NCBI GenBank assembly: GCA_914767715.1
Contig: OU612067.1
Coordinates: 32,522,162-32,586,161, forward strand
Length of the DNA stretch: 64,000 bases
Reading direction: 5' to 3'
Source of the DNA: Membranipora membranacea
Lineage: Eukaryota > Bryozoa > Gymnolaemata > Cheilostomatida > Membraniporidae
The notes beneath the pieces are model-generated. The model did not search any database. It had not been told where the DNA came from and saw only the letters and a list, made by a program, of their open reading frames with translations. Below, in pieces: positions 25,035-61,249 of the stretch; position 1 is the stretch's first letter, and each line of letters opens with the position of its first letter. The position numbers and the translations under genes were made by a program.

Positions 25035-28000
25035 ATGAGGTTCTTCTATCATATGTTACTAGTTGTTGTGATATGTGCTCCTAACATCCTGGCTGTAACC
25101 ACTAAACAGGTAGGTATTTTGATACATAATTTAATATTCAGTATTAAAACCAAATATTGTACAACTAATTCTTTTTGGCTGCTCGTTGATAAACCAACAA
25201 AGGGAGGGTCTATTGAAAGCAGGAAGGAAAGTTTTCTTAGACGGGGAAAGGCGGGGCGCTGTCTTCTATGCAAGAAATGTTCAAAGGTTTCTAAAATTTT
25301 TTAAATAATTAATATAGGGTAGGAAAGAAATATCAAAGCTTGCAATTATTCAAGCAAAACTTTATTAGAGATCATGACTTGCTATAGAAAAAAATAGGTA
25401 CTGTCAGCTGCATCCCAACGTTTACATCATACATGATCAGAGAGGACAATTTCTGAGTCTGTACATAATCTTTCCCAAAAAGAGTTCTGAATTTTTCACT
25501 ACGATAATCTTGCAAAGCTCTTGCAGAGCTAGCTGCCTTGCTGAAATAAAACACTCTGAGTAGCCTTTCATGATCTAACTTTAGCTCATTACATATTCAT
25601 CAGGATAAGGCGCTCGGTGCTGTGTGCCAAGGTATAATAGATGAGACACCAGCTTTAATCCGAGGCCTTGTTAGACTGATATTCCATGACTGTGTAAGCG
25701 GATGTGACGGGTGTATAGATACGTCCCTTACTGAGTCAACATACGGTGATGTAGTTAGTGCAGGTAAAGCCTTTATAGCTCAGGTTTTAATTTGGCCATA
25801 ATGGCCAGAAGTTGACATTGCACAAAAACATTATAAAAATGTCCTAGGATGTAAAGTTTTCTCCTTCCAAGTCTCTTCTCATCTTGGTTATCCTCAGTCC
25901 ATCTTGTGTATATGGAAAATGTGCATAGCCAATGATTGATTTGATCAGTGTGCAGCATAACAGTCAGCGATAATCAAATTTTTGTTAGTGGTAGAGCAAG
26001 AAATAATATTTAATACTTTCTGTTGATATTATATTCTATATCCTATCAGTGTATAATAATTGTTTGGCAGTTTTTAGGTACTGGCCTAACACCATCTTTT
26101 TTGTGCTGGGCCCTTTGCTTTCTCTCACTCTCATTTCAAGAAACTATATTGAATGTGTGATGTGTACTGTAAGCTAGACATCACCAGTAACTCGCTCGAC
26201 ACTACAACGAACGCGCAGCTAAGGAAATCTTCATTCATAAGTTTTAATTATTTTTTCCAGGCTTAGATCGACCAATCGCTTCACTCGATAATGCGTACAC
26301 TCAGTCTGTACTTACATCAAACACAATAAAGGACATCAGTAGAGCTGACTTCTACGCTAAATGTGGCCAGGTGGCAGCTGAGCAGGGCAGACAGAATGCA
26401 GGTTAGAATATTCATTTTTTCACTTGCCCACTCAATTATGTTGATATTATTACAGAACGTTCAGTGTTATTAAAGAATCAAAAACTGGATCAATTTAATA
26501 AAGTATCCGTAAAAAATTCACACGAGAGTACAGAATGAATTCAGATGTGCCGTTTTTGTGCCCATCACAAAACCTGACATACCTGCTAAAAATTTTTGTT
26601 TATGTGACTGACGTGATTATAACTTTCTAATTTCATGAAGGAGGTTCTTCTGCAAAGAATCTACCAATTGTGATGAGATATGGCAGAAAAGATTGTGATG
26701 GGAATCCAAGAGAAAAGGCTGAGGATTTCCCAAATAACAGGATGGGACTACAGGCTGATAGGAAGAATGGCCTAAAAGAAGGAGTACTTGAATGGTGCAG
26801 AAGAGTGTTCAGTTTCACAACAAGGGAATGTGTTGCCATCATGGGTAAATTGCTGAAGCTGAGTGTTCCTTGAGAATCACTACTCTAATAATGAAGCATT
26901 GTAGATGTTAATTTTAAAAAAGTCTCTCTGTTAGCGATCTAAAGGCACAATCTCTGACAAAAAATTGCTTCCTGTTTTCTGCACATTTCAAACATCTAAT
27001 ATCTTTCCACCAGAGTTAGTAAAATAGTTTTCAAAATCATCTGATCTAATGTTAAATTTGCATAGATATAATTTGATTGCATATATTATTACCTGCTTCG
27101 CTGTAAAATCAAGTTTACAGGGCATTTGTCCCTCAACTTGCAAGCATGTTATGCCTTACGTTATGTGCAGTAGCCACTTTACTATAGCAACAGTTCATCC
27201 TCGGCTGTTTGTTGCTGAAGTGTATTTACCGTGTATGTATCACATACCCCTGAATGATGTTCATGGTTTTTCTTGTTATTAATAACAAATATTTCAATCT
27301 TCTAGGGGCTCACACACTTGGCGGAGCGCGACCTCAAAATTCAGGTTATGAGTTCTTGTGGATTCCAGGAGGTCAACTCAACTTGGATAACCAGTTTTAC
27401 ATAGACCTCGCCAGTAAGAACATGAGCTGGGTTCAGGTAGGCGACACTTATTATCCAGCATCAAGCAATTAGTTGGGATTTTTTTTTTGCATCTGCTTTT
27501 CTAGACGGCAGTTTAGGATGCAATTGATGATGAGACAGTGCCCCTTACCCATGTTTGTTATCAGTATCAACTGAAATTGGTATTGGTGACTTTCTGCAGA
27601 CAAGTAGACGGTTGATAAAGTGCCTTCCCAATAAGATTGCCTTCCCTATACACCATTAGGGCTGGCTGTGGGGCTAACTTCAAACGCTGCAATAACTTTT
27701 GAATTTTGATTATTGCAGGTAAACATAGCCGGAGATGAAGCTACTGCAGATGATGCCAGATGGCAGTACACTGTACGCAATAACCTGATGTTAAATACTG
27801 ATATGTGTCTCTTCAAGGATATCTCTCCAGATCATTATGGACTGTGAGTATAGCTGAACTACACCAAAACGTTTTGAAACTTTCAGCATCTTAGTTAACT
27901 GAATAAACACGGTCAAATATATTTACTCTTAAGGTTGTTCTATCTAGGAATTCCCTAGTGGTTCTCACCCTACATCAACTTACAGACATGTATGCATATA

Positions 28001-28427
28001 TGATACAGAGAGAAAAGATTTATGCCAGTTCAATGACCTCTTATGATACAACATAATCAAAATATATCCTTCTTTGCAGCGCTGAGTCCTCGGCTAGCTC
28101 TGCAAAAAGCTCAAAAACAGCAAATTTTGTTCAAATCTATGCAAAGAATAATAAAGTATGGTTAAAGGACTTTGCAAAGGTAGGTGAGAATATTTTCTTC
28201 TTATTAATGATTAATCAAATCCAAAAAGTGGCAAAACTCAACAATGGTCTGATATCATTATCTAATTATTTAATCCGTGTTCACCTGTTACCCGTTACTG
28301 TTGATATTTTATAGCCTAAAAATTCTAAAACAAAATGTTGTCAATTTAACATGTTTATCTGTGATGCTTGCAGGCTTTCACTAAGATGATCGAAAATGGG
28401 AACAAACTGCAACCTATCAGAAAGTAA
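25035..28427 (+). CDS. Secreted plant/fungal-type heme peroxidase, 8 exons, 329 aa (unit 1)
   Basis: Predicted H2O2-dependent heme peroxidase of the plant-type (non-animal) superfamily, exported by a signal peptide (MRFFYHMLLVVVICAPNILA). Exons: 25,035-25,109; 25,604-25,763; 26,261-26,401; 26,641-26,844; 27,306-27,436; 27,719-27,843; 28,080-28,179; 28,374-28,427. All junctions are GT/AG and phases agree. The distal heme site is VRLIFHDC (Arg49, His53), followed by the Cys-rich SGCDGCID. ISRADFYAKCGQVA is the helix-D-like region, and LPIVMRYGRKDC matches the 'P-v-x-x-GR-x-D' block. The proximal site is MGAHTLGGAR (His196), then LDNQFYIDL. The C-terminus LKDFAKAFTKMIENG is the canonical last helix. 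The length fits secreted class II/III enzymes rather than short cytosolic ascorbate peroxidases. Class is unresolved and the substrate unknown. It has its own TATA box and differs from unit 2 at residue 45 (Arg here). Confidence 0.93.
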
Positions 28428-30520
28428 CTGTGGAACCCCCAATAACACCCTACCAACCCTGAAATGACAACTATGAGCTAGATTTGAGAAAAATGCTGAA
28501 AACACTCCCCCCCCCCAATTCAAGATACTTATATTATTTTCTAGATTCTATGCATTACCATTGTTATTTATACAGTGTCTTTGTATATGTTCTGACATTT
28601 CGGCCAGATATTCTATTCAGGCAATGATTAACATCTTGGAATTATCTAGGAATATATATTTTTCATAGTTTATAACATTATTAATATATATTGGTCAACA
28701 AATGTGAATTTCAGTTCTTTTTGAATTAGATGGTGTAGGTAATTATTCACAAACTCTAGTAGTATCTCAATGATATCGTCAATGTCTCTACAATAATTGT
28801 TCTCATCAAACAACATAAATGTGACTATATTCATCTCCTAATAGAATGGGGTTTCTTCATTATACAAAATCTGAGTTCTTCATATGCTTTTCTTATCTGT
28901 CGGAGGTAAAAATTATCCTCAGACTTCTATGTTTGAATAAATCTCCATACTGGTATGATGCCAAATAGAGTTTCCCACTAAACTTTTACTATGAGCAACT
29001 TGAAACCTGTGTACTGCGTTGATTTCCAAATCGCATTGAAAGAGATCAAGGAATGAATAAATTAAATTGAAACGAATGAGATCTGGTCGTTTCTCGCTGC
29101 ATCAGGTTTTTTTTCTCATTCAACCATTGTCTTACCCCTAACCAATTCCAGAACGATATAAGGATAAGTGATCGATGAAATTTAACTCATAACCATGACG
29201 CCTCAATGACTTACCTTGTTACCATGTCAATTGGAGACTGCATGTACAGAAAAAATATATATAAAAAATATATGTATATACAAATATCAATAAATCAAGC
29301 AACAGGCATGAGTTGAAAGGTACCAACTTAAGATGTAACTTGGTACAAGGGATGAAGCTCCTTGCATCCACAAACCGAGTTGCTCTATCTGAACCCCAAA
29401 GACATAATGGGTTGATGGTGTAAATTAGAGATCCCTCTATATTCACTACACAGAGTACTGTACTCACATCCATCATGATCATACCATCCAACCAATTCCA
29501 TCCTGTTAACACAGCGTACAGCATAAAAAAAGCAGAAAAAAGAGAAAAAAACTTGATTTCATTGCTTCAATAGTTTGTTGATTTCACTTGTATTTACAAT
29601 TTTTTTCTTGATTATATTTTAAGATTTCAAGTTAACTTTCGATAAATCTCAATGTTCATCCTATTCTTTATTTAATAGGCAATGTCTTAAAATCCATATC
29701 CTGTGTAAAAAAACTGTGAAAGTTCAAAGTTTAAACCCTAACTGTGAAGCTGCACAGGAGTCCAGGAACTCTGGTTACCTTCAAACACGTATTTCAATGC
29801 ACATTGAAAAGTAGTAAAGAAAATAATCTTCAAGAATGCAAATACAAACAAGCAGCCTGCCATTTTTACACACAAAGCAGGGAGTTCGAGATGTCTCAAT
29901 TTCCCTGAGAGAAGCAAAAGTGACATTGGAATGATCTGACCTCAAAATCAGAAGAATCTTATATTAGCCAAAAGCAAAGATCACATACTGGTTTACTCAA
30001 AAGTATGAGATATTGGTTTTTGCTTGAACAGTTGTGAAATCCCACAACTTTCCAACTAAGATAGGAATATACTGTGCAGGTTGGTTTACCTTGGTATTCT
30101 GGTACATTTATCGTGTATGAGTAAAATATCTACGTATGACTAATAACGTCTCTCAGGTCACATGTTTTGTGTGAGCCTATCCTGTAGATATGTCAGCAAA
30201 TGGATATCACCGCTAAGTCAGTATAAGCTTAGTCACCTTTTTATTTCCCTGTTGATGAATCATAAAAGTATGCAGTATGAACTATGAAGTCATCCTTTTT
30301 TGGTATAAAACAAAGGCTGTGTTTTGACAATAAATTATTAGCTAAACAAAAATGGCTAAAATTGTTTACATAAAATCATTTACAAAAGCAGAGAAAAAAG
30401 GAAAGAAATATTCTCTGATCAGATCATTGAGAAAAAGAGGAATTTTCAGACTGCATGGCGCAACGCCTGCTTTCTTTGGTTGGAGAACTGCGTAAAAGAC
30501 TGACTTTTGCTGATAATTCT
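28428..30520. other. Peroxidase 3' flank and non-coding stretch (unit 1)
   Basis: Conserved with 61,250-63,130. AATAAA words at about 28,936 and 29,056 are possible polyadenylation signals. Unit 1 has about 220 bp (29,207-29,424) absent from unit 2, without recognisable ends. No gene supported. Confidence 0.5.
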
Positions 30521-30529
30521 CTCTACATG

Positions 30530-31390
30530 TTTTTAGAATTTCAGGTGTTGGTGAGATTGTACACCAAGCAGTCTACTTTCCTCATTCTCAACAACAGGAT
30601 CGTTTGAGATGGTGAGAGCATCACAATGTTTTGTCTTTTTTAAGGCGAATATGATGCGGGACGATTTGGCAATATACAATATTATGTAGTTTTCTACACA
30701 CCTGTTGGCGGCATAACTGGCTGCTGTTTGGAAGTGCATATTGTTTGCCTGTTTGCTTTGTGTGCAGTACAGTTGGCAATGGTGACCTGTTCTGCTTTTG
30801 CGCTGTTGATTATTGTGGTTTTGTCAATATACTTGATAGTAATAGTGTTTCGTGTGGTATCAAATCATGAACAAAAACATTCCATAATAACGGTGCGAAA
30901 ATAGTATCCTGCGGCTACCGATTCGAGGCTGTTAAGATGGTGATATACTACCTTTTATCGTACTTTCTTTATTCTGTTACTGAGAAAGTCTTTGACTAGC
31001 AGAACTATATATAATGCTGGTGATTCCTTCAGCTCCTGAAGTTTCTCAATGGGGATGTCAGGCCTCATGCTATTCAAAGCTTTGCTGAGGTCAAGGAGGG
31101 CCTGCCTGCGCACCCACACAAACTTTATTGTCTAGTGATGTTGAGACATGGTTTGTGAGACTTACCAGTGCACTGTGGTGCCAACTCCTGAAGTCTGTGC
31201 ATACTTGTCTCTCTTGGTGGGAATTTGGTGTTTGATAAGTTTTGATATTGTCTGCCGTTATCTTTCCAAGATGAGAAAAACAAGGAAATAATATATCCGA
31301 AAGTCTTCGAAGGTTTTTTGGCGATTTTACCCTGTTTGTCGGAGTAATATCTGCATTTCTTCTCCAATGAAGGAGATTCCCCAACTTAAC
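30530..31390 (-). pseudogene. Degraded non-LTR reverse transcriptase fragment (unit 1)
   Basis: Reading the - strand across several frames: a TLVSLTNHVSTSLDN block, a motif-A-like LLDLSKALNSM (unit 2: LLDFSKAFNSM) followed by RPDIPIEKLQELKE, then KYVDNTTI in place of the catalytic Y-x-DD box (second Asp replaced by Asn), and SRLLGVQSHQHLKF as the post-palm block. Multiple stops and frame changes. It lies at the right edge of both units. Confidence 0.65.
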
Positions 31391-32439
31391 GCGCGTCGTT
31401 GATCCTAGATGCTAGGAGCTAATTATGTGGGCATTATTCTTGGAGATCCCGGTAGGGAAATCTGATGATTTTGTCGCTTTATTAGTCTTGATGTTAATAG
31501 TAGACGCAAGACTTTGTATTCCTCAACTTTTGGCATTGTTTCAGCAGTTGGTATCTCAGGGTGAAGGTGAACGTACAGTGTGTTTCTTAGAAGTAGGCTT
31601 TTAACACCTCAGTAAAACTGTTTATCGTCAATGTGAGTCATCTTGGCAATTGAGCAGTTTGAAGAATCCTGCTCATCAGTGATATTTTTGGAATTGAGCC
31701 ACCAATTATTTTAGCCTGTCACAGACTGGTTTGTGTCTTTATTTGTCAGTTTTCTCTTTTCCATGAGTAGTTCATGTGTCAAAAGTTTTCAAAAGAATTT
31801 TTTATCTGGCTCACCATTGTTATGGCCCTCTATTAGTGGTGTAAATAGGGCAGGTTTGGTACTTGGATTTTCTTCAATGGACAGTGCTTGTCCAATATGG
31901 AGTTGAGTACCTGTACGTCGACTAAACTTCAAGAGCACAGAGCAAGTATAAAATCTTGCATATCATCATCATTCACCAATGATATCTGTATCCAAACTTA
32001 AAACATTGCAACTCAAATATTTTACTGCTCGATATGTCATGCTCAGATGAAGTCATACAGCTTCAATAATATGAGAGTTATCCAGTCTTGTGAGAAGAGC
32101 AGATAACTGTAAGTAAGTATGTAAACTGATCTTTGCCTGTATGTACATTATAAACTCACTAACACAGTGTCAGAGTGTTTGGGCATCCAATGCTGATCAG
32201 GAAATGTACTGGTGTTAGTATGTTCTATTTTTTTGCATGTTAAAGTCTCATTAGAGAGGGTAGGAAAATATAAAAGTGTTGGAAGGCTCCCTATTGATCT
32301 GGAGCAACTTTTACATACAAGGAAAACTTATGCTGACGCTAAATTTCTTTTTATCGATAAATGTCTTTTCTAGGTCTGTTTTAATGTCTAGATTCTGTCA
32401 CTGGTATACAAGGAGGGCAATCATGGCTGCTGTGTAGTA
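31391..32439. other. Spacer between the two duplicated units
   Basis: No counterpart elsewhere in the window. No exon, RNA gene or element end recognised. Confidence 0.5.
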
Positions 32440-32693
32440 CATAAGCTAAGTAACTATTAGCTTCTCTGTTGGTAAATGAGATAATTGATAATAAATGTTT
32501 TTGATTATAAACACTTCATTTTTCTGTTCAATATAAAGGAGGCTGTATACTGACCTCAGCTTCTCAGTCACATAGACTTAGTAGTTTGTACATCAGCAAT
32601 GACTAGTGTAGTGATATAACTTTAACTTTGACCTTGTGTAATAATGTAAGCAGATGAAAAAATGCCTGTCAGTGTGATTGCAACTTTATTCAC

Positions 32694-33326
32694 AAATTGG
32701 GTGGATAGGGTTTGACAGTTGTTCTGGTAGAGTTTTTTTTATCCTGATCAAATTGGTAATATTTAACCTTTCACTAGATTGCACAATAGACAGGCAATAG
32801 CCAAAAACGCTGCCGACAAAAAGGAAAGACATAAAAAAATGATGATATAATTTCAAAAAATCCAAAATCTGTAATAGCCTGTCAGAATTAGGGTATATTC
32901 AAGTTATAAAGGGTCTTCTATCATAAACAGCTGAGAAATGGTTGCAACACCCCCTTATAGCACCTATATATGACCATCATTAAAGCGAAACTGATTTTTT
33001 TATGTTGCTGCCTCCTGGAAAACTGGCTTCGGATGATCGTATAAATCTGAATTTTTTTATGTTGCTACGATAGCCGACCTATGAAGTTGGTCAACAATGG
33101 TAATGATATTATATAAATTATGAAAACTCTTAGATGCACTAATTCTGACAGGCTCTTTCGGATCCTGGATGTTTCGAAACCAATCATGATTTTTTTATCA
33201 CTTTCCCTTTTTTCTGAATTGTTTTTGGCAATAAGCCACCTGCTGTGCAATCTAGTTTAAGGTATTATGCTATCAACATGAAAAACTCTATCAGAAACAA
33301 CCTGTCAAACCCTATCCACCCAATTT
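32694..33326. mobile_element. Long-inverted-repeat (foldback) element, ~633 bp, unit 2 only
   Basis: The ends AAATTGGGTGGATAGGGTTT and AAACCCTATCCACCCAATTT are exact inverted repeats. Imperfect complementarity continues inward for roughly 200 bp on each side, including ACTAGATTGCACA/TGTGCAATCTAGT, CAAAAA and GCCTGTCAGAATTAG/CTAATTCTGACAGGC. The corresponding point in unit 1 (after about 1,080) lacks it. No transposase. The superfamily cannot be named because the target duplication is unclear. Confidence 0.8.
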
Positions 33327-33567
33327 TGTAAAATGGATGTGAAAGAAGGAGGAGGCTGCCACTGGACTGACCAATTGACAAGATATGTTTGATAAGCTGC
33401 ACAGCCATGCAGATAGCAGTCAAAAATATCATAAATGTATTTTAGATTCATGAATGAGATGTTTATTACGCAACAAATTGCCAATGGCCAAACTAAATTT
33501 AATCATCATGTTTCCTCCAGCTAAATTCCTTCTTAACAAAATTTGTAAAATGTTTCCTTTATTTCAG

Positions 33568-33969
33568 TTGCCCATGTGATGGATGAAATGTGCCGGCCAG
33601 TTCGAATAGACACTCCAGCTGATAGTCAAGGTTTTATAGTCAGTCATAAATAGTTTGACTTTGGTACAACTAGATACAGAAGTGGACGAGTGAGAACTAA
33701 CTCTCTTTCTCTGGTGGCCGGTGAGCAGGCGAGAGTTGATATAAAATTTCACTATATCAATCTAAAACCTGATACAAGTGGAGGATGTGACACTCTCTTA
33801 AAATTTGATAGCGTGAAAGGATATACAAATCATTATAAATTTGAGCTCTGCGCACAAACAACTACCAAGGTAGAATGGGATTGCCATCTGTATCCTTACA
33901 ATGATGAGAAAAAACTAACATTCGAAAGTCGTTCTCTAACAGGAATTGGATTCTTGTTAGAATACAAAG
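33568..33969 (+). pseudogene. CUB-like exon with one in-frame stop (unit 2, upstream of receptor TM exon)
   Basis: Bounded by TTATTTCAG and donor GTAAAG, phase 1 in and out. It begins VAHVMDEMCRPVRIDTP, then SQGFIVSH, and after a TAG (33,651-33,653) continues with FDFGTTRYRSGRVRTN, ARVDIKFHYINLKP, GCDTLLKF, YKFELCA and the closing LTGIGFLLEYKG. Spacing and the C-terminal strand fit a CUB domain. Phase 1 at its end matches the phase-1 start of the stalk/TM exon at 41,072, so the two could splice together across the intervening insertions. The single stop makes it a pseudo-exon unless skipped. No equivalent exon lies at this place in unit 1. Confidence 0.55.
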
Positions 33970-34200: not shown

Positions 34201-34758
34201 TTTATTTCACAAGAACAATCCACCAATTATTGACCTGTTCTAATGAATTTCCAGCCAGGATCAAGGATCTAAGTCAATTTCATTGGAAGATATGACATAC
34301 AGATAGCTAGTCACCGCACTACCACTAAACATGTCTGTGCCCATAAATGCCAAGTTTCAAACAAATATTTCTGGGTCTAACAAATCTTTGCCAGCTGCTG
34401 ATATTTGATCATTAAAATCTCAGTTTTGTCCCTGACAGGAGGCTGCTGAAGGATGCTATTGAATATAACATACCTGGCTGCCAGGTCCTGTATACTTCAC
34501 TACACATTGGTCCTCACTTTTGAGTTATTGGCATGACCTTCCATACATTATTATGCAGTTGCTGGAGAGAAAACATCATCTGAGACTGGTTGTGATGAAG
34601 GATTCATAAAGAATGCAGATTTGGTGAAATTTCTAGGTGGTGACACTAGTAGGCGGATTTATCAGATGACTTGCAGAGATCTCACAACAACTTACTTATG
34701 CCAGTAAGACGCATGAATTAATCGTGAAAATGTGAAAATGAGTCATCGGCAGGTTTTA
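34201..34758 (+). other. Duplicated host sequence (matches 1,660-2,024 and 5,309-5,539 of unit 1)
   Basis: Shows the unit without the unit-1 LINE: the junction near 34,598 (GAAGGATTCATAAAGAATGC) is that LINE's empty site. It ends at the left copy of the 12-bp target duplication of the R2-like element. Confidence 0.7.
34747..34758. repeat. 12-bp target-site duplication, left copy
   Basis: CGGCAGGTTTTA, repeated at 37,046-37,057 on the other side of the R2-like element. The single-copy empty site is in unit 1 at about 5,528-5,539. Confidence 0.9.
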
Positions 34759-37045: not shown

Positions 37046-37179
37046 CGGCAGGTTTTACACTGTAGATGAATCCATAGAAACTGTTTCTTTTATTTGTTTT
37101 TGCTTCTCAGCAAGTAAGGCAATATTGAAATGAACACAATCCATCCCACTAATATAATCTTAATATATATATATATTTT

Positions 37180-40077: not shown

Positions 40078-40079
40078 AG

Positions 40080-48128: not shown

Positions 48129-48130
48129 AG

Positions 48131-49114: not shown

Positions 49115-49955
49115 TTACGGTATAAGGCACTTTAGAATTTTGTCAGGTATTTGCAGCCTGCACCCCTTTGAGCAGACCTTATTCTCGATGACGTAGTCTA
49201 ATACGCTCCCCGTACAGCTGTCGATGGCAGTCGTGATGGCTTGTGTGGCACAGAGGCCCATCTTCTTTCTATTGCCAACCCTTGACGAATTGTAGCGGCT
49301 GTCCACTGATATGGCAATCTCCCCCTCCCTCCCCCCGCTCAGGCAACATAGTTTGTTATCATTTAATTTTTCCCCTGCCAGTCTGCTCAGATCTCTGTTA
49401 TTTATGTCTGTCATCTCATTGTCCACAAGCTTGGCCAGCTTCTGGCAGTTGGATTGAGCCAGCGGGGACATGTCAAGTGATGCAAACAGCTGATATGCTC
49501 CGTGCATGCCAAGGCAGCTATCCTGCACGGCATGCCCGAATTGTTTGTTGATAGCTGCCCTCTTCGGCCCCTCCTGCTCTCCTGCGCTGCTTTGTAGAGC
49601 GGATAAACTTTGATAAAGCTGCACCCTTTTGACTCGCATGTTAATGATATGCTGCATATTAGGCCTTTCTTTCTTGTGACGCCCATACCGATGACCCACT
49701 CCTGGCAAGTTTCCAATGTCTTGTGGCCCTTCTGGAAGTCCTGCAGCGCATGCAGCATCATGTCCATGTTGACCACAAAGTTTCCCACACCCTTAGCCTC
49801 ATTGCCGTTATCTGACTGCTCTAATTTTTTGTCTTTGCAGGTTGAGCGAGGCCGAAGAACTCTCATACCAGCATTCTCTCCTCGAGCTGTTCTCGCCACC
49901 AGACGTCTGCAAACAGAAAACCGGCAGATGTCAGTCTACACTCACATATATTTGT

Positions 49956-49988
<33 letters not shown>

Positions 49989-50235
49989 CCTCGTATATGT
50001 GACCACACCCGTTGAGAATGAATAAAATCTGGTCAAAGCCAATAAAACATCAGTTTCATGCGTCAAGTCAAGCTCACCCATTTTTCTCCTCAATGATACG
50101 CCTATATTGACTGCTCTCGAGTCTCACCGTCCTGCGGCTGCATTGTGGGCTAAACACTTGTGTCGCTATTCTATCATCCCCTGGCCGAAATCCCTTAAGT
50201 TTATTTGCGATTTGATTTTTATTTAAACGTGGCAT
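49115..50235 (-). pseudogene. Mutator-like transposase, N-terminal part, broken (unit 2)
   Basis: Exon 1 is 50,078-50,235 with an intact start (MPRLNKNQIANKLKGF, a stretch deleted in unit 1). Exon 2 runs from 49,906 down to 49,115. A one-base loss in a C run near 49,570 shifts the frame; unit 1 is intact at that point, whereas unit 1 is shifted near 16,140 where unit 2 is intact. The conserved ISVDSRYNSSRVG and GSVLDYVIENKVCSKGC blocks remain. The C-terminal catalytic part is missing. Confidence 0.55.
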
Positions 50236-50696
50236 GATTATAGGCAAGCTACCTTGCAGTCGAAACACATTCTTACATATTTTGCGGTATTCTTGGTATT
50301 CTAATGGCTCATGCAACCCACGGTTACCTGTAAATGGGAGTTGCTTGCTCGGGTATCAAGAGCAGGCAACTCCTTATGTGGTAAAGGCAAAATATATACT
50401 GAAACATACATGGTAGAGTCTGCTGTTGACCGCAGTATTACTTTTTTCCAAATAGGTTTCCGAATGAAGGCACGTTGTTACCGAGAGAGCAATTATCAGA
50501 TGGTCATATTTCCAAAACTACTGAAAATAGATGGCTGAAAAAGTAAGCGAATACTCATGGAGTGCCTGTGTCTAAAACATGTCTGGACATGTCTGTAATG
50601 CCCTGATCGTCATAAAATCCCGTTTTCTTGTAGGACACATGCTCTAGCTCACTAGGACAGCATATTTATGTCATTGGCAATCGCCATGCTCACTAT

Positions 50697-51170
50697 TAGG
50701 CAATATACCTGTAATTAGGTGAAGGTCAACTTCTTGCACCCATCCTCCAAAATAAAATGACTAGTATGCTGAAGACAAATCAGGACCCAGGCAAGTTGAT
50801 AGTACTGCAGTCAGTAATATTGAGGCATGTAAATGTTGCCTGTTGTATTTGCAATTGAAATTTTGGTGATTTGAGGTTTTAAATAATTTTAGCAAAATCA
50901 ATTTGGGGCGCTTTATGCAGACAAGTCAGTTGAGGCAAAATTGGCTGGAAAACCTGTAAAAATGCACTTGCTCCGTTTGATTGAGCGCCAAAAAAATTTT
51001 ACAACCGTTTTCCTTTCAATACTCTCAAGTATGTCAGAGCAGAAGCAGACCATCGTTTTGAGTGGTCTGGTTAAAGAATTGAAAGAAGCTGAAGCAGGCT
51101 TTTGGAGGTGAGAAGTCAACATAATTTGCATGTAAAGCAATGGGGAAATAAATAGAGGTGTTGGACCATA
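50697..51170. repeat. Single copy of the 474-bp unit (unit 2), with candidate exon 50,895-51,111
   Basis: Unduplicated counterpart of 17,309-18,254. The + strand frame (ALYADKSVEAKLAGKP to EAEAGFWR, then a GTGAGA donor) is open here too. Confidence 0.7.
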
Positions 51171-52167
51171 GTCACTCACAGTTTATTTTTGCAATATTTA
51201 TTTACTTATTTCTTAGCCTGAAATTTCAATATCTTTGTGCGGATTTATGGGTATGGCACCCTTCATCCATATAATCAATGTATAACAAGAAATGCGGCTA
51301 TGAAAATTAGATTCAACCAATGATACCTTATTAGAATTTTAAATGAAGATATCAATGACAAGACTCATGACACTGCGGATTGTCTACCTAATCACAAAAA
51401 AAAAGAGGACAACTAACACATTTTGAAAAATAGTAACTTGCATAAATCAAAGGGAGGGCATTAACAGGCATTAATGATGGACAAAACTAGAAAGTAGATA
51501 CCCTCAACAGGTCATACATAACAAGATGGCAGATAAAAAAACAGGAGGTCTCCGCCGACAAACACCCAACATGGAGTACCACTCTGCATCTGTTTGTCAT
51601 TTTTCTAAGCTAAAACTTGAGTGTTCATTTATTATGAATTGCATCGTTTAACCTGATTTTACATATTATATTGTTATATTGGCATATCTTATAGGTGCAT
51701 TCATAACTCACTTAACTACAACTCAATCCTCAACACTGCTGCTGCCTGGCATGTAATTTTACAGATCTGTCCCACTCAGTGATATCAATGAACTCCCTCG
51801 AAGAGGGAGTTCATTGGTGATATTTCCTATCACAACTGCATTATTGCTGTCAGATTATTGGGGTCATTATTTTTAACGAGTATTTATTATGTGAGTGTGG
51901 CATGTTTTAGCCTTGATTAACATTTTCAGGATGTGGCCTCTGATATGGCGTTCCAATATACCATTAACATGTGTGAATATTATGTCGTATTTATTCACTG
52001 CTGAAAATTCATAATGGTTTTATCCTTTCCTCATCGCTCAGCTCAGTCAACAAACATTATGATTTACAACGCAGACCAATCAATTTGCTCTCTTACACCA
52101 TAGAAATTTATTTAGCAGCAAGCAGCCTGGACTATGGACTGAAAATGGATGATCAATCCGTCGCTAC
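51171..52167. other. Non-coding stretch with hairpin 51,782-51,823 (unit 2)
   Basis: Counterpart of 18,255-19,248; the hairpin is identical. Nothing else seen. Confidence 0.45.
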
Positions 52168-52307
52168 TACCGTAAAACCTCACCTATAAGTCACCGGACT
52201 TATAAGTGAATCACCCCCCTCAGAAAAAATAAAAATGCTCCAGTTATAAGACACCCCACAGCTATAAGACACCCCACAGCTATAAGACACCGTGTCTTAT
52301 AAGTGAA

Positions 52308-52460
52308 TCATATCAGTAGTTGATGTTTGGAAGCTCTCCATCTTTGAATCAAGCGTCTATTAATGTTCAATTCCCTTGCAGTCTTGTCAAGGTTGTTATT
52401 CTTTTCAACTGTTCTCAATACTTCCAGTTTCTGCTGAATGGTGTATGAGGTTCTCGGCAT
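52308..52460 (-). CDS. Remnant pogo-type HTH, 50 aa (unit 2)
   Basis: Protein identical to 19,389-19,541; the one base difference noticed (in the Leu-Glu codons of KLEVLR) is silent. Same stop. Expression unproven. Confidence 0.6.
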   Translation of the reverse strand: MPRTSYTIQQKLEVLRTVEKNNNLDKTARELNINRRLIQRWRASKHQLLI

Positions 52461-52571
52461 GTTTTCTTTATTTTGAAAGACTGTGAGAGAGATATGATAT
52501 GCTGATTGTTGAAAAGTTTGAATTTAGTGGCACACATTCACTCACTACAAATGAGTAGTTTTGGGGAAAAA

Positions 52572-52643
52572 GCTGCCCTCAGTGAGTTTGAACACACAAC
52601 TTCATGATTACAAGTCGCACACTTTACCACTGAGCTATTCAGC
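52572..52643 (-). ncRNA. tRNA-Thr-like segment (unit 2)
   Basis: Partner of 19,653-19,725, one T shorter in the T loop. A and B boxes are still visible (GCTCAGTGGTAAAG, GTGTTCAAACTC). A tRNA pseudogene or SINE-like insert. Confidence 0.45.
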
Positions 52644-52774
52644 ATCGGTGATTGTAATAGGTTTTAGTCCAAGCTAAATATAAAAATGCTTCAAATGATA
52701 GTCGCGTCTATATGCTACTCTCTTACAGCCGCCTTCACTTATAAATCGCGCGATCTATAGGTGAGGGATAACGG

Positions 52775-53397
52775 TACAAAAAATTAGTTATTACCACCCA
52801 CAATTAAAAGCCTAAGTTGCTAGTCCACAGTGGGCGGGATCAGCTATATAAATTGGCCATAGCGGCCCTTCAACGGGCATCCGAATTCACACTGAGGGAA
52901 AACTCACCCCAGCTATGATTAAGGTAAACAACAAAGAAAGTTTGTAACATCAGGCTGGTCACACTGGGAATTTTCATAGGGAGGTGTGATTTAATGATGT
53001 AGGAAACCTGAATATTGATCACTAGCCCGTAAGTGTAAACGTTTAAATTAACTAGATTTGCATATTATTTTAAGAGAATTTTATTATAATGTCATATTAT
53101 AATCATACAATCAAGATGTAATCATGTCATGTTCTTGTCAAACTTTCCAGATTGACAGTTCTTCCATAATAAGCTGACAAGAGTTTACGACTGAGAGTGC
53201 CCAGACCGTCTGTAAGATTTGATCCAGCTTTTGTCATGCGCAAAATACCCGAATCACCCTTAAAAAGCGGCGGTGAGAAATAACCCTAAGCTGTATTTAG
53301 AGACCTGTCTAGGTTTATTGTCAAACCACTGCTGCCACACAGCCAAATGTGTGCTTATAGAAATCTGTGTCACTCAAAACTAATGTAATGAGGCTGC
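52775..53397. other. Non-coding stretch (unit 2)
   Basis: Counterpart of 19,859-20,479; nothing recognised. Confidence 0.4.
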
Positions 53398-53648
53398 AAT
53401 CTCAGCATTGTCACCTATTGAGCAAATAATTTGCACAAGCTGATTGTCAAAATTAGGGTATGAAATTAATTATCTACCGCATCGGGTGACGTAGTTACCG
53501 TCTTACTAGTGCACACTGTACACGTCATCACAGAGTAAGGATATATCCTTACTCTGTGACGTCATAAGCTGGTGTATAGATTTCATGCCCTGATTTTGCA
53601 GATCAGTTTGCGCAAATTATTTGTTCATTAGGTTACAATTATCAGATT
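53398..53648. mobile_element. Foldback/MITE-like element with 32-bp perfect palindrome (unit 2)
   Basis: Partner of 20,480-20,730. The palindrome at 53,528-53,559 is unchanged, while the arms carry a few substitutions. The adjoining TGACGTCA is kept. Confidence 0.75.
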
Positions 53649-54410
53649 TTAGTCTCGATCTATTATCTTTGAGCTATGCAGAATTCAATGTGCACAAATT
53701 TGCATGAGTGGCAGCAGTAGTTTAAGTCTATGATTCATTTATGGTTACAAATAACATCGTTTGATTATCACAATTTCAAACAAGGCCAGTTTGTAACATA
53801 AATGGAGACCTGAGGTTGCCTGTCAAATATAAAAGTTCCTCAAACAAGCTAAATTGATTATTAACTTTCCTAATAAACCACAAAGTATCCTAAATTTTAC
53901 GATCAGTTTTAACTGCCTATAACTAAAATGTTGAAGCTGCCCGTTTTATGTTACGTTTTTCCTGCGCCTTCGGTGTTTATCTATATAAATGACCTCTTTC
54001 ATCCGCTGTGTGTATATCACCCTGCACCTTTGCTGTTTAGTTGTTATAATCAAGAGTAATTCATAGAAATATTTCTGTATTATCCACACTTGTATTTGCA
54101 CAACCATAGCCTTAGTGCATAATTTATGTGAATTTTATCAATTGATAGAGAAGACCGTTTGACAATCAAACTGAACATCTAGGATGTTCTATAGCACTGT
54201 AACCCAAATCACTTTCCTTTGTTGCCGTCGTCGATCATCATCACTGGCGGGCATATGAGCTTGTAATTTGAACAAATCGGAACACTTTTATTATCACATG
54301 ATCAGCTTAGCTTATATCCTGTTTCACTCTCATTAAGTGTGGTACATGTTAGTCAGGGACTCAGGCTAAATTATTATTACATTATACAGCTTGTGTGCCA
54401 TAGGAAGGTC
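53649..54410. other. Non-coding stretch (unit 2)
   Basis: Counterpart of 20,731-21,487; nothing recognised. Confidence 0.4.
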
Positions 54411-54508
54411 TTTGCCTAGTACAACCTACATGACACATGCTAAGCTTCTTGGGTGTGAGAGTTCTATGTTTATTTTTGCAAATAGTTTTTTTAATTGAAT
54501 GGTACATG

Positions 54509-54556
54509 CCAGTAGCTCTTTTTTTTAATACTTTATTTAATAAAAAGAGCTTCTGG
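54509..54556. repeat. Inverted repeat (unit 2), one mismatch in 15-bp arms
   Basis: Partner of 21,695-21,742; right arm AAAAAGAGCTTCTGG. The preceding 108-bp unit is single here. Confidence 0.8.
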
Positions 54557-55037
54557 CCGTTTGACAGATCATATTAATATCAATAATCAAACCTATAGAC
54601 ATCTTGACATACAGTATTCATGATATTGATATTTTATGGTAATAAATTACTTTATTGTAATACGTTATGAACCTATTATTATTAAATTATTTAATATTTA
54701 TTACTAAATATTGTTGAATTGTTTCAGATCTCAAATAGCAGTCTGTAACATAATTATAGGCCCTAAGTTGTCCGATAGTTATAATAAAATGTCCCCCATC
54801 AATCTCAACTGGCGTTAAGATTACCTAATAAACCACAAAGTGCAACCTTGATCCCTATCCTGCAGCTTACCAGGTTACAATGGCTAATAAATAAAATATT
54901 GAAGCTGCCAGTTTCATGCAACATTCATCCTGTGCCGCTACTATCTGTTTATAAGTTCTTGCGATATTCTACTCCGGTATATAGGTCACATTTACTCTGG
55001 TGCAGACTTACTTTATTTGTGCTCATGTTCATATATG

Positions 55038-55107
55038 AAAGTGTCAGCGGCCTACTGACATAACTTTAAAGTGTCAGAGGCCTACTGACATAAATTTAAA
55101 GTGTCAA
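55038..55107. repeat. 30-bp tandem repeat (unit 2)
   Basis: Partner of 22,224-22,293, with one substitution in the second unit (CAGAGGCC). Confidence 0.8.
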
Positions 55108-55963
55108 GGGGTATTATTTCAATGGATGATGCACTCTTAAGTCTGCATGCATATGATCACAAATTAAATCTATGCTGTAATTCTGATAGCTTGAGTAACT
55201 TTATAACTTCCGTGATTGGAAAAAAAGCAGATAATCTCCATTATCCATAATGAAATATATCAAATATGATAAATTGAAAATTCATAGTTTCACGCTCGCA
55301 CAATCCAGGTGTATGTTCTTCAGTAACATTTATATTCGTTGTGTTTGCTGTAACGCATACTTGCATCAAGGGCACATTTTATAAAAAATCAATTCCTAAT
55401 TCAGTTTTTCTATTCACCTTTGTAAAATTATTAATCCATGTATATTTTGTTCATTTTTAAACAAAAAATAAATCAGTCTACTGGAAACAGATTTTGGTAT
55501 CAATAAATTCCGTGCCAAACTTTACAGCCACAAGTCAACAAGATTGTTCTTACCACCTATAGGTTAGGTAGATTTCAATTAACGCAGATTTTCAGGAAAA
55601 TTGAACTATACATAATCCAAGATGACTGTCAAAAAAGTGCTTTATTTATTGGTGATTGATGCTTTATTCTCTAAGCTAGAGCTAATGTTGAAATATTGAC
55701 AAGAGAATTCAACCTTGCATGGCATATTTATTATAGAAAAATTGCATTTCCACAATATTTTCTGAATTATGACGCTGCGTTAAAATGCTCAATTTTTCTA
55801 ATTAGTTGTACAAAATCGTGATTTAGGTTGCCAGAAATGGCAATGAGTTGATTGGTAGTTTTCTTCTTTTCTTATACAATCAACCCTATATCTAGACTTG
55901 CCAATGCAAGAGCATTTTGAATTTATTACCTGAAGTTTATAAATGAAGTTGCCATAGACCTTT
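55108..55963. other. Non-coding stretch (unit 2)
   Basis: Counterpart of 22,294-23,148; nothing recognised. Confidence 0.4.
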
Positions 55964-56122
55964 TTAAATCCGCTCAGCACATCTCAATACAACCTGTTCA
56001 TCAATTCCTATGGAACATGTTTTGTGACTGTCCTTTTGACCCAAGTTTGTCTGCAGTTGAGATATCAAGATAATTTTACAAATAAATATCAAAATGGAAA
56101 AATAAAAGAAAATGTTGCCCAT
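55964..56122 (-). CDS. Candidate small secreted protein or signal-peptide exon (unit 2)
   Basis: Partner of 23,149-23,307 with identical translation. Same leader, same TCSIGIDEQVVLRC block and same TAA. Identity alone is weak evidence because the whole unit is nearly identical. Confidence 0.25.
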   Translation of the reverse strand: MGNIFFYFSILIFICKIILISQLQTNLGQKDSHKTCSIGIDEQVVLRCAERI

Positions 56123-56130
56123 GGTCCCAC

Positions 56131-57097
56131 CTGCAATAACTGAAAATGTCAAGAATTGTCTAGGCTTGTGTATTAGATAGAAATGGGAATACTATTTCAA
56201 CCAAATGTGTGACCCTAAGGTGTGCACACCAAATCCCTTGTTCGATCGAGTTTATGGCTGTGCGCGCAAAGATATTTTTGGTAACAGCCACCCAACAACT
56301 CATTTGGGTTTGTCTCAAAAATGATTTGCTCCAACATTGTCAGATGACATCCACCGACTGTTACACAATGCTATAGATTTTAAAGGAATCAGACGGTATT
56401 TTTCAGTTTTTACCTGCAATAATTATTGTTTCAGTTTTGTGAGGGCATAAAGATTACAATGATACAGTGCCATGATATATGAATACAGGAAAGTAAAAGT
56501 AACAGTTTAATAACCGTACCCATAAGCCAATTTCGAGTAACCCAAAAACAGATGGTGACAATATTCAACATGCTACACACTTACCAGTCCATCACCGTTT
56601 GTTTTTGTTTATTCTACTAGTAATTACCAGTACGGCAATTGTAGTCCGAGTGCAATCTACTGTCTGACGCGTCACATCTGCCATGTTGCTTATATTATGT
56701 CAAGCACAATGAGATAAGAGAGTTTTGTGTAACACCACAATATTCTACATCTCCTCGTTACTTGAAGTTAAAAGTATGGATCTAACTGTATCTTTATTTC
56801 CTCCATTTTCTTTTGCGTCACAAACTAGATTCGCTCTCGACGTTAATTCCAATTTTTTGTGGCAAAGGGTGTTCTGGTTATCTCAATTGTACACAAACAC
56901 AACTTACAATATTGCTCAAGATGTGAATGTCCCTTGCGTCACAACCCTCTCATAAAAATAATGCTCTTGCCCATTTGGAATCACCATATTATTCCATTTT
57001 TTAAAAATACCACTTTTAGGATAAGTTTCCATAAGTATAGCTTAAAGATTAATGTTTATTAGTGTTGATCTATCAGGATTGATGCTGAACTCCATAC
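56131..57097. other. Non-coding stretch (unit 2)
   Basis: Counterpart of 23,316-24,282; nothing recognised. Confidence 0.4.
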
Positions 57098-57480
57098 CAA
57101 CCAATCGGATTAAAAATTACGAAACAAGCCATGTCCGTGTCTGCTTCCATATCCTCCTAAAACAGCATCACCTAATAATAGCGTCATCTAACCGGAGAAA
57201 AACATGTACTGTGACCTCATTTGTAACCTTGTTTTTTTACCATGAGGATTATGAACACTATTTCGCAATTCAACTGTCAAGATATAGTTATCCAATTGGA
57301 TTAAAAATTACGAAACAAGCCATGTCCGTGTCTGCTTCCATATCCTCCTAAAACAGCATCATCTAATAATAGCTTCATCTAACCGGAGAAAAACATGTGC
57401 TGTGACCTCATTTGTAACCTTGTTTATTTGCCATGAGGATTATGAACACTATTTCGCAATTCAACTGTCAAGATATAGTT
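57098..57480. repeat. 191-bp tandem duplication (unit 2)
   Basis: Partner of 24,283-24,665, both copies retained. Confidence 0.9.
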
Positions 57481-57607
57481 ATGCTTTGCTCCCTCTCTCT
57501 GAATATTACAAGACTTCCCATAATGATGGTTTACCTATCCTAGGGATCATGTTTACATCCCCGTAACACTTCAACTGCCTTCTGTGTATTTAGGGGGTAG
57601 TCATGGG

Positions 57608-57645
57608 TATATAAGACACAATATCCTTTGACAAACCATCAGTTC
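57608..57645 (+). promoter_or_regulatory. TATA box and initiator-like site of the peroxidase gene (unit 2)
   Basis: TATATAAG at 57,608-57,615, ATCAGTTC about 30 bp on; unchanged from unit 1 over this core. Confidence 0.55.
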
Positions 57646-57849
57646 CAGCACAGTATTTGCTAAGGTAGGACTGAACAAGGTATTGAGCCAGTAGTGTAAC
57701 ATCAATTTTTTACAATCGGAAAAGCGTCTCAAATTTTGTCCCACAAACTAAGTGAGAATTTTGTGTGACAATTGTATCACGCTGCAATATTTACAGAAAG
57801 ATTGACAGAGCTATAATCACCACAAGTAACTGAGAAACAAGGCAGAAGT

Positions 57850-60800
57850 ATGAGGTTCTTCTATCATATGTTACTAGTTGTTGTGATATGTGCTCCTAAC
57901 ATCCTGGCTGTAACCACTAAACAGGTAGGTATTTTGAAACATAATTTAATATTCAGTATTAAAACCAAATATTGTACAACTAATTCTTTTTGGTTGCTCG
58001 TTGATAAACCAACAAAGGGAGGGTCTATTGAAAGCAGGAAGGAAAGTTTTCTTAGACGGGGAAAGGCGGGGCGCTGTCTTCTATGCAAGAAATGTTCAAA
58101 GGTTTCTAAAAGTTTTTGAAATAATTAATATAGGGTAGGAAAGAAATATCAAAGCTTGCAATTATTCAAGCAAAACTTTATTAGAGATCATGACTTGCTA
58201 TAGAAAAAAATAGGTACTGTCAGCTGCATCCTGACATTTACATCATACATGATCAGAGAGGACAATTTCTGAGTCTGGAAATAATCTTTCCCAAAAAGAG
58301 TTCTGAATTTTTCACTACGATAATCTTGCAAAGCTCTTGCAGAGCTAGCTGCCTTGCTGAAATAAAACACTCTGAGTAGCCTTTCATGATCTAACTTTAG
58401 CTCATTACATATTCATCAGGATAAGGCGCTCGGTGCTGTGTGCCAAGGTATAATAGATGAGACACCAGCTTTAATCCCAGGCCTTGTTAGACTGATCTTC
58501 CATGACTGTGTAAGCGGATGTGACGGGTGTATAGATACGTCCCTTACTGAGTCAACATACGGTGATGTAGTTAGTGCAGGTAAGGCCTTTATAGCTCAGG
58601 TTTTAATTTGGCCATAATGGCCAGAAGTTGACATTGCACAAAAACATAATAAAAAAGTCCTAGGATGTAAAGTTTTCTCCTTCCAAGTCTCTTCTCATCT
58701 TGGTTATCCTCAGTCCATCTTGTGTATATGGAAAATGTGCATAGCCAATAATTGATTTGATCAGTGTGCAGCATAACAGTCAGCGATAATCGAATTTTTG
58801 TTAGTGGTAGAGCAAGAAATAATATTTAATACTTTCTGTTGATATTATAATCTATATCCTATCAGTGTATAATAATTGTTTGGCAGTTTTTAGGTAGTGG
58901 CCTAACACCATCTATTATGTGCTGGGCCATTTGCTTTCTCTCACTCTCATTTCACGAAACTATATTGAATGTGTGATGTGTACTGTAAGCTAGACATCAC
59001 CAGATGGGGTAACTCGCTCGACACTACAACGAACGCGCAGCTAAGGAAATCTTCATTCATAAGTTTTAATTATTTTTTCCAGGCTTAGATCGACCAATCG
59101 CTTCACTCGATAATGCGTACACTCAGTCTGTACTTACATCAAACACAATAAAGGACATCAGTAGAGCTGACTTCTACGCTAAATGTGGCCAGGTGGCAGC
59201 TGAGCAGGGCAGACAGAATGCAGGTTAGAATATTCATTTTTTCACTTGCCCACTCAATTATGTTGATATTATTACAGAACATTCAGTGTTATTAAAGAAT
59301 CAAAAACTGGATCAATTTAATAAAGTATCCGTAAAAAATTCACACGAGAGTACAGAATGAATTCAGATATGCCGTTTTTGTGCCCATCACAAAACCTGAC
59401 ATACCTGCTAAAAAATTTTGTTTATGTGACTGATGTGATTATAACTTTCAAATTTCATGAAGGAGGTTCTTCTGCAAAGAATCTACCAATTGTGATGAGA
59501 TATGGCAGAAAAGATTGTGATGGGAATCCAAGAGAAAAGGCTGAGGATTTCCCAAATAACAGGATGGGACTACAGGCTGATAGGAAGAATGGCCTAAAAG
59601 AAGGAGTACTTGAATGGTGCAGAAGAGTGTTCAGTTTCACAACAAGGGAATGTGTTGCCATCATGGGTAAATTGCTGAAGCTGAGTGTTCCTTGAGAATC
59701 ACTACTCTAATAATGAAGCATTGTAGATGTTAATTTTAAAAAAGTCTCTCTGTTAGCGATCTAAAGGCACAATCTCTGACAAAAAATTGCTTCCTGTTTT
59801 CTGCACATTTCAAACATCTAATATCTTTCCACCAGAGTTAGTAAAATAGTTTTCAAAATCATCTGATCTAATGTTAAATTTGCATAGATATAATTTGATT
59901 GCATATATTATTACCTGCTTCGCTGTAAAATCAAGTTTACAGGGCATTTGTCCCTCAACTTGCAAGCATGTTATGCCTTACGTTATGTGCAGTAGCCACT
60001 TTACTATAGCAACAGTTCATCCTCGGCTGTTTGTTGCTGAAGTGTATTTACCGTGTATGTATCACATACCCCTGAATGATGTTCATGGTTTTTCTTGTTA
60101 TTAATAACAAATATTTCAATCTTCTAGGGGCTCACACACTTGGCGGAGCGCGACCTCAAAATTCAGGTTATGAGTTCTTGTGGATTCCAGGAGGTCAACT
60201 CAACTTGGATAACCAGTTTTACATAGACCTCGCCAGTAAGAACATGAGCTGGGTTCAGGTAGGCGACACTTATTATCCAGCATCAAGCAATTAGTTGGGA
60301 TTTTTTTTTTGCATCTGCTTTTCTAGACGGCAGTTTAGGATGCAATTGATGATGAGACAGTGCCCCTTACCCATGTTTGTTATCAGTATCAACTGAAATT
60401 GGTATTGGTGACTTTCTGCAGACAAGTAGACGGTTGATAAGGTGCCTTCCCAATAAGATTGCCTTCCCTATACACCATTAGGGCTGGCTGTGGGGCTAAC
60501 TTCAAACGCTGCAATAACTTTTGAATTTTGATTATTGCAGGTAAACATAGCCGGAGATGAAGCTACTGCAGATGATGCCAGATGGCAGTACACTGTACGC
60601 AATAACCTGATGTTAAATACTGATATGTGTCTCTTCAAGGATATCTCTCCAGATCATTATGGACTGTGAGTATAGCTGAACTACACCAAAACGTTTTGAA
60701 ACTTTCAGCATCTTAGTTAACTGAATAAACACGGTCAAATATATTTACTCTTAAGGTTGTTCTATCTAGGAATTCCCTAGTGGTTCTCACCCTACATCAA

Positions 60801-61249
60801 CTTACAGACATGTATGCATATATGATACAAAGAGAAAAGATTTATGCCAGTTCAATGACCTCTTATGATACAACATAATCAAAATATATCCTTCTTTGCA
60901 GCGCTGAGTCCTCGGCTAGCTCTGCAAAAAGCTCAAAAACAGCAAATTTTGTTCAAATCTATGCAAAGAATAATAAAGTATGGTTAAAGGACTTTGCAAA
61001 GGTAGGTGAGAATATTTTCTTCTTATTAATGATTAATCAAATCCAAAAAGTGGCAAAACTCAACAATGGTCTGATATCATTATCTAATTATTTAATCCGT
61101 GTTCACCTATTACCCGTTACTGTTGATATTTTATAGCCTAAAAATTCTAAAACAAAATGTTGTCAATTTAACATGTTTATCTGTGATGCTTGCAGGCTTT
61201 CACTAAGATGATCGAAAATGGGAACAAACTGCAACCTATCAGAAAGTAA
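57850..61249 (+). CDS. Secreted plant/fungal-type heme peroxidase, 8 exons, 329 aa (unit 2)
   Basis: Exons: 57,850-57,924; 58,420-58,579; 59,083-59,223; 59,463-59,666; 60,128-60,258; 60,541-60,665; 60,902-61,001; 61,196-61,249. Every splice site, the signal peptide, distal Arg49/His53, proximal His196 and the C-terminal helix are as in unit 1. The only residue difference seen is position 45, Pro here versus Arg in unit 1 (ALIPGLVRLIFHDC), four residues before the distal Arg. One silent change lies in the same exon (Ile51). The introns carry many more differences than the exons. Both copies are expected to give active secreted enzymes with the same role; the effect of Pro45 on helix B is unknown. 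Confidence 0.93.

Follow-up and report, generated by a model that had tools for sequence, protein, structure and literature searches.

Intact copies of a putatively secreted plant-type haem peroxidase within a large gene family of an animal genome

Introduction

Haem peroxidases of the plant type (Pfam family PF00141) often pass for non-animal enzymes; those of animals are described in the literature as rare and their electron donor as untested. The closest described system is a unikont and metazoan clade of putative ascorbate peroxidases (APX), most of them predicted to be secretable, which includes the APX of Hydra viridis and whose signal-peptide table holds one sponge and one ecdysozoan entry (Zamocky et al. 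2014, PMC4232752). Passages of that study give the donor of the metazoan members as untested, suggest a defence role for sponges and speak of conserved basic residues in APX (PMC4232752); a passage elsewhere calls the metazoan clade 'peculiar minor' (PMC4420034). Here we describe a 64,000-nucleotide stretch of an animal genome (C3:32522162-32586161, hereafter the window), which carries two copies, c1 and c2, of a PF00141 gene. We consider it likely, from their sequences, that c1 and c2 encode secreted, catalytically complete haem-b peroxidases of an old, native multigene family.

Such genes have been met in several animals. Among the basal-disc genes of Hydra magnipapillata, two PF00141 transcripts appear as 'putative ascorbate peroxidase', and the passages concerned discuss adhesive polymerisation (PMC5080974). 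Lower APX contigs are given for symbiotic green hydra in an excerpt on that animal (PMC6019070). HvAPX1 is said to act in oogenesis in a passage that also finds no evidence that the coral Acropora digitifera acquired an APX gene by transfer (PMC3750612), contrary to which another source, in the part concerned, lists PF00141 for Acropora (PMC11639872). A haem peroxidase occurs in the skeleton of red coral, its superfamily not being stated in the passages on it (PMC7853314). The animal (peroxidase-cyclooxygenase) peroxidases resemble the present enzymes in possible extracellular oxidase roles but form, as a passage on their phylogeny has it, a separate superfamily (PMC4420034).

The genes in the window share with the metazoan and unikont clade (AqAPx, CaroAPx1, Hydra viridis APX) the PF00141 domain and an animal host, and their signal-like N-terminus suggests that, as predicted for most of its members, they may be secreted (PMC4232752); the c-type gene is probably a new member of this branch, beside which we set it by description only. 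An earlier note on this DNA, made from its letters, had taken a signal peptide and a class II/III-like length to set the gene apart from cytosolic ascorbate peroxidases, a view that is overtaken, as to the signal peptide, by the secreted metazoan PF00141 enzymes already described in a sponge, an ecdysozoan and Hydra (PMC4232752, PMC5080974). What is unusual is not the single gene but the expansion of the family, including pseudo-peroxidases. The passages on the clade, which we compared by description only, mention no large family with active-site-less members (PMC4232752), and a literature search that was not designed to prove absence found no report of an expansion of such size.

Results

Two intact peroxidase genes in the window

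The two genes and their exons are as follows.

25035..28427, + strand: peroxidase copy c1, 8 exons, 329 aa; distal R49, F52, H53; proximal H196, W212, D265
57850..61249, + strand: peroxidase copy c2, 8 exons, 329 aa; R45P relative to c1
25035..25109, + strand: c1 exon 1, hydrophobic N-terminus, putative signal peptide; ends in phase 0
25604..25763, + strand: c1 exon 2, distal motif VRLIFHDCVSGCDGC with R49, F52, H53, C55, C59, D60, C62
26261..26401, + strand: c1 exon 3
26641..26844, + strand: c1 exon 4
27306..27436, + strand: c1 exon 5, proximal motif GAHTLGGARPQNSGYEFLW with H196, N205, W212
27719..27843, + strand: c1 exon 6, MLNTDMCLFKD, contains the proximal Asp D265
28080..28179 and 28374..28427, + strand: c1 exons 7 and 8
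57850..57924, 58420..58579, 59083..59223 and 59463..59666, + strand: c2 exons 1 to 4
60128..60258, 60541..60665, 60902..61001 and 61196..61249, + strand: c2 exons 5 to 8

On splicing, each copy yields a coding sequence of 990 nt (329 aa and a stop) with GT..AG at 7/7 introns, and the two differ at 2 of 990 bases, with one amino-acid change, R45P. The earlier note had proposed two 8-exon, 329-aa genes at 25,035-28,427 and 57,850-61,249, coordinates that proved exact, with frames and splice sites intact; the motifs it named, VRLIFHDC and MGAHTLGGAR, are both found in the spliced products. The single Pfam domain of the protein is PF00141, whose score of 67.7 bits (E 1.8e-18, against a curated cut-off of 27) excludes a chance match. 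Hydropathy reaches a 9-residue mean of 3.43 at residues 7-15, while the highest 19-residue mean beyond residue 30 is 1.03; a hydrophobic N-terminus with no other strongly hydrophobic segment is consistent with a signal peptide. There is a single N-glycosylation sequon, N232-M-S.

Haem pocket and class assignment

We compared the pocket with those of yeast cytochrome c peroxidase (CcP), soybean APX, lignin peroxidase (LiP) H8 and horseradish peroxidase (HRP) C in MAFFT alignments made with two settings. The columns of R49, F52, H53, H196 and W212 matched the references in both, and that of D265 was aligned in one and displaced in the other; in a 24-sequence alignment (described below) it was again aligned. 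By that one setting, by the larger alignment and by eye (MLNTD versus MLPTD), D265 corresponds to CcP Asp235. The distal His-Arg and proximal His-Asp set of the PF00141 superfamily is present (H53, R49, H196 and D265). On the distal side are Arg-x-x-Phe-His, an arrangement known from classes II and III, and an FHDC..GCD motif; the distal Trp of class I is absent, F52 standing in its column. The proximal side, His196, Trp212 and Asp265, is the His-Asp-Trp set of class I.

Against the class references, phmmer gave 41.8 bits for wild-type CcP, 25.5 for APX, 12.2 for HRP and -0.4 for LiP. In a search of solved structures the best 60 of 97 PDB matches were all yeast CcP, the top one an engineered chain at 47 bits; judged by score, yeast CcP is the nearest solved relative among the PDB matches listed. 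It shares with c1 the proximal His-Asp-Trp and an NSGYE motif, and c1 differs from it in the distal Phe for Trp, the signal-like N-terminus, the cysteines past the distal His and Ser for the distal Asn. HRP C (class III) shares the FHDC...GCD distal motif, with Cys55 and Cys59 at HRP C44 and C49 and D54, G58 and D60 at HRP D43, G48 and D50, which we take to be the distal Ca2+ positions; the HRP T171 and D230 positions also match. It differs in the proximal Trp of c1, and HRP D222 is not aligned. As for the class III disulfides, c1 has Cys at two of the eight HRP cysteine positions (C44 and C49) and at none of the other six. The proximal Phe, presumably a class III feature, is not matched (W212), the HRP row being poorly aligned at that column (T196). 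LiP H8 (class II) is alike in its distal Phe and in being secreted, as c1 probably is, but has a proximal Phe (F193 column) where c1 has W212, and its pairwise score is practically nil.

A plain class II or class III assignment is ruled out by the proximal residues. Judged by its pocket, the peroxidase belongs to neither class, combining a distal half of class II/III type with a class I proximal half. The class II/III-like reading of the earlier note thus holds for the distal half (Phe, FHDC..GCD) and fails for the proximal pocket, which is class I-like (W212).

An expanded family on five chromosomes

A third intact copy, c0, lies at window-relative -12402..-9020, about 37.4 kb upstream of c1, with 8 exons, 329 aa and GT..AG at all introns. 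Farther upstream of c0 are two diverged paralogs, d1 (-58424..-54776) and d2 (-36649..-32968). When the c1 protein was searched against its own genome, 122 of the 138 candidates were scored, and 95 exon matches on five chromosomes reached E<=0.01. Grouping of these matches gave 5 genes at C3:32.46-32.58 Mb, 11 at C3:27.09-27.19 Mb, 3 at C9:2.80-2.82 Mb, 1 at C11:2.19 Mb, 4 at C1:22.70 Mb with 1 more at C1:0.199 Mb (the latter from matches alone), and 4 at C6:9.907-9.944 Mb (two e-type, one tail and one diverged). The total of about 29 counts loci, not working genes, since L030 is clearly broken and other models are tentative; two weak C9 matches are excluded. The earlier note's 'duplicated' gene is thus real in sequence as the c1/c2 pair but understated, the cluster also holding c0 and two pseudo-peroxidase paralogs. 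A PF00141 profile search of the whole genome (E<=0.001) found just 2 places, both on C6 and none in the window, because the exons are short; set against the 95 exon matches, this shows that profile searches run exon by exon can miss such genes.

Models were built for 19 loci with a spliced aligner of our own making, and 15 were kept (L030, L032, L036 and C1c were dropped); 4 of the 15 (L024, L031, L037 and C1d) have in-frame stops, either because introns were wrongly placed or because the genes are broken. The distal Arg-Phe-His is present in 14 of the 15 kept models, the C1a model being without that exon, the proximal His and Trp in all 15 and the Asp in 13. Cysteines occur at C55 and C59 in 14/14 models having exon 2, and at C62 in 13/14.

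The 15 models were aligned with c0, c1, d1, d2, e1 (a C6 copy described below) and the four references, c2 and e2 being left out. A WAG+G4 tree of these 24 sequences over 226 columns sets the 20 animal sequences apart from the four references, with 90.7 in the SH-like approximate likelihood-ratio test (SH-aLRT) and 94 in the ultrafast bootstrap (UFBoot); with only four outside references, this shows that the animal sequences are nearer to one another than to those enzymes and says nothing on origin. The pairs c0+c1 (95.9/99) and d1+d2 (100/100) are firm, whereas the joining of d1/d2 to c0/c1 (86.8/30) and most splits within the C3 set are weak.

Paralogs without active-site residues

The genes d1 and d2, whose structures are hand-made models, each fit 8 exons with GT..AG introns and phases as in c1; d1 is 45% identical to c1. 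Both have Gly in place of R49 and GAGLFKD in place of GAHTLGG, so that the haem-ligand His (the H196 equivalent) is lost, and in d2 the distal His is also replaced, by Arg. Their exon 6 is shortened from 125 to 41 nt, with loss of the MLNTD motif; alignment software still puts an Asp in their D265 column, and the loss of this Asp is therefore read from the exon comparison. Both retain signal-like N-termini. On C6, e1 (6 exons, 373 aa) retains the distal and proximal His and has Gln for the catalytic Arg; a second copy about 11 kb beyond it, e2, is only partly modelled. These two copies of a diverged peroxidase gene belong to a tandem duplication of about 11 kb in the region C6:9922001-9952000 (L001-L003).

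From their sequences, the paralogs without catalytic residues are probably non-enzymatic secreted proteins. Plant APX relatives without haem residues are known, according to a passage in PMC4232752, and pseudo-enzymes in this superfamily are therefore not new in principle.

Proposed function

In this superfamily an Arg/His pair assists heterolysis of H2O2, compound I is formed and two one-electron oxidations follow. By analogy, the c-type enzyme would enter the secretory pathway and, presumably, be exported; haem would be held by H196, hydrogen-bonded to D265 and next to W212; R49 and H53 would split H2O2 to give compound I; and extracellular substrates, either small phenols or the tyrosines of proteins, would be oxidised, one electron at each step. 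Such activity might serve in oxidative defence, or it might cross-link matrix, mucus or the coats of eggs. On the residues conserved, it is highly likely that at least one family member has peroxidase activity. Extracellular oxidation of phenols or tyrosines seems the better supposition over ascorbate or cytochrome c as donors, and either specific role, defence or cross-linking, is a tentative suggestion at most.

On a broader view, the metazoan branch of plant-type peroxidases, elsewhere described as rare, may have grown in a bilaterian into a large family of secreted effectors, with about 29 loci on five chromosomes. Enzymes with a class III-like distal and a class I-like proximal pocket would, together with secreted pseudo-peroxidases without the haem-ligand His, work in parallel with the animal peroxidases as a system for oxidative defence or for hardening of the matrix; we offer this as a possibility, short of an even chance. 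A chromosome-scale animal genome with tandem clusters, enzymes and pseudo-enzymes provides material to test substrates, including whether ascorbate is the donor, and to learn how a proximal pocket of class I type works when the distal one in front of it is class III-like and bears cysteines.

The host genome

The assembly that contains the window has 339,339,785 bases in 18 contigs. Eleven of these are of chromosome size (23.4-41.1 Mb), six measure 10-36 kb, and C18 has 14,741 bases; the contig with the window is 35 Mb long. The sole COX1 match in the assembly is on C18, the mitochondrial contig. Read in table 4, this COX1 has in-frame TGA as Trp; AGA/AGG falls at conserved Ser positions (NNM-FWLLPP, KIF-WLS), and ATA at conserved Met positions (SS-VESG, AHH-F). 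C18 uses the invertebrate mitochondrial code (TGA=Trp, AGR=Ser, ATA=Met), which points to a bilaterian host, most likely a protostome; a cnidarian or demosponge host is disfavoured by it, as these animals generally read AGR as Arg, while glass sponges share AGR=Ser. A search for haemocyanin (PF14830) as a mollusc marker matched nothing, but neither did its controls. By a reading of frames, C18 has the order ND5-COX1-ND2 on one strand, which could help in placing the phylum. Neighbours of the peroxidase genes include a PF07885 ion-channel exon, probably of a K2P channel, and a tetratricopeptide repeat (TPR) gene scoring above the cut-off of the NPHP3 model, with two more TPR open reading frames (ORFs) below it.

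The duplicated block

A direct repeat, at an offset of 32.6-35.4 kb (32.8 kb at the genes) and with 85-99% identity by piece, takes up most of the window.

1680..33897 (no strand): first duplicated block, with c1; outer limits of collinear aligned pieces, broken by unaligned insertions (for example a long interspersed nuclear element, LINE, at 2247-5053)
34262..64000 (no strand): second duplicated block, with c2; continues to about 67630, window-relative
24286..24667, + strand: 191-bp tandem repeat, two copies, whose end is some 370 bp short of the c1 start codon
57101..57482: 191-bp tandem repeat, two copies, before c2, the same unit as ahead of c1 and likewise about 370 bp from the start codon

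After the tandem repeat stands a TATATAAG element, at 24793 (c1) and 57608 (c2). The exact element was not found within 300 bp upstream of c0, and its presence in front of c1 and c2 but not c0 may possibly reflect a promoter change following duplication.

Between c1 and c2 the introns differ at 27/2403 bases (1.1%). Between c0 and c1, 21/990 coding bases and 15 residues differ, as do 76/2376 aligned intron bases (2.1% versus 3.2%). Nei-Gojobori estimates of nonsynonymous (dN) and synonymous (dS) divergence were dN 0.021 and dS 0.024 (dN/dS 0.89) for c0-c1, and dN 0.020 and dS 0.019 (dN/dS 1.05) for c0-c2. Exons diverge slightly less than introns, yet amino-acid change is not clearly constrained.

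Alternative explanations

Two observations weigh against an active c-type enzyme. The dN/dS ratios do not demonstrate purifying selection on these copies, and Ser77 of c0-c2 stands in place of the distal Asn (N82 in CcP, N70 in HRP) by which the distal His is oriented, a replacement that may slow compound I formation. Among the paralogs this column holds Ser in L020 and L024, Asn in L019, L021x, L026, L027, L028 and L029, Asp in L025 and C1d, and other residues in L022, L031, L037 and C1b, several of the last four falling at an unsafe exon junction; as Asn is kept in six paralogs, Ser77 is probably derived, though not firmly so. The c-type genes might on these grounds be relaxed, non-functional relics, as c0-c1 dN about equal to dS, the lost distal Asn and neighbours d1 and d2 without R49 and H196 equivalents would suggest. 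However, all three copies keep full frames, all splice sites and R49, F52, H53, H196, W212 and D265, and c0-c1 exons differ less than introns, so we regard relics as quite improbable. The enzyme might instead be a secreted ascorbate peroxidase proper, scavenging H2O2 with ascorbate, since its metazoan relatives are named putative ascorbate peroxidases (PMC4232752) and APX came second of the four class references by phmmer. That reading is disfavoured by N205, which in c0, c1 and c2 occupies the column of the APX ascorbate-binding Arg, with Ala or Asn and one gap in the 15 kept paralogs; we consider it unlikely. The Arg in question is, we assume, R172 of APX, with its ascorbate-binding role.

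With introns only 1.1% apart, c1 and c2 are within reach of heterozygosity and, taken by themselves, might be two haplotypes that the assembly set end to end and not two genes; c0, a third copy at 3.2% intron divergence, could not easily be explained in this way. The patchy identity along the block (85-99% by piece) and the tandem family clusters elsewhere also speak against an artefact, which we hold to be improbable. As PF00141 is chiefly plant, fungal and bacterial, the genes might be contaminants, or might have been acquired recently by lateral transfer from a plant, an alga or a fungus. We give this very little likelihood: the members are spread over five chromosomes, in a chromosome-scale assembly whose mitochondrial code is that of an animal, they are multi-exon and highly diverged, and the PF07885 exon and the TPR gene are among the neighbours. 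Scans of prokaryote and viral contigs with a few short patterns, which are weak, confirmed no relatives. Contamination as such, a concern of the earlier note, is ruled out by the 35-Mb contig, the assembly, the spread over five chromosomes and the mitochondrial code, the host contig and flanking genes being animal and the family native; this exclusion does not extend to ancient gene transfer. The note's central proposal, a plant-type haem peroxidase that is intact, duplicated and probably secreted, in a genome that really is an animal's, is borne out by the gene models, the assembly and the mitochondrial code.

Other features of the window

Scans of the window for tRNA and Rfam families found nothing, and it contains no TTAGGG-type repeat. 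The animal-type surroundings described earlier, transposons and phase-1 CUB exons, were recovered in part. Transposon ORFs were found by Pfam: an endonuclease/RVT LINE and a CENP-B/Brinker-type helix-turn-helix scored above cut-offs, and a THAP9_C match and an RVT match at 39049-40077 just under them. Three candidate CUB exons (12855-13298 and two in L005) had no Pfam match at E<=0.05. Repeated secreted-receptor-like exons, CUB-like by eye, lie at 12855-13298 and 46598-47038 of the window and at L005 1976-2443, and Thr-rich stalk and transmembrane exons occur elsewhere in the block, for example at 5639-5986. The LINE-like element at 2247-5053, whose endonuclease and reverse transcriptase domains occupy more than one frame, is absent from the corresponding place in the second block. 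A reverse-transcriptase fragment, just under the Pfam cut-off, lies at 39049-40634 (- strand), and about 4.5 kb ahead of the window start is a tyrosine-recombinase-like ORF (L004 5063-5569, - strand; PF00589, E 8.7e-07); together these suggest DIRS-type retroelements.

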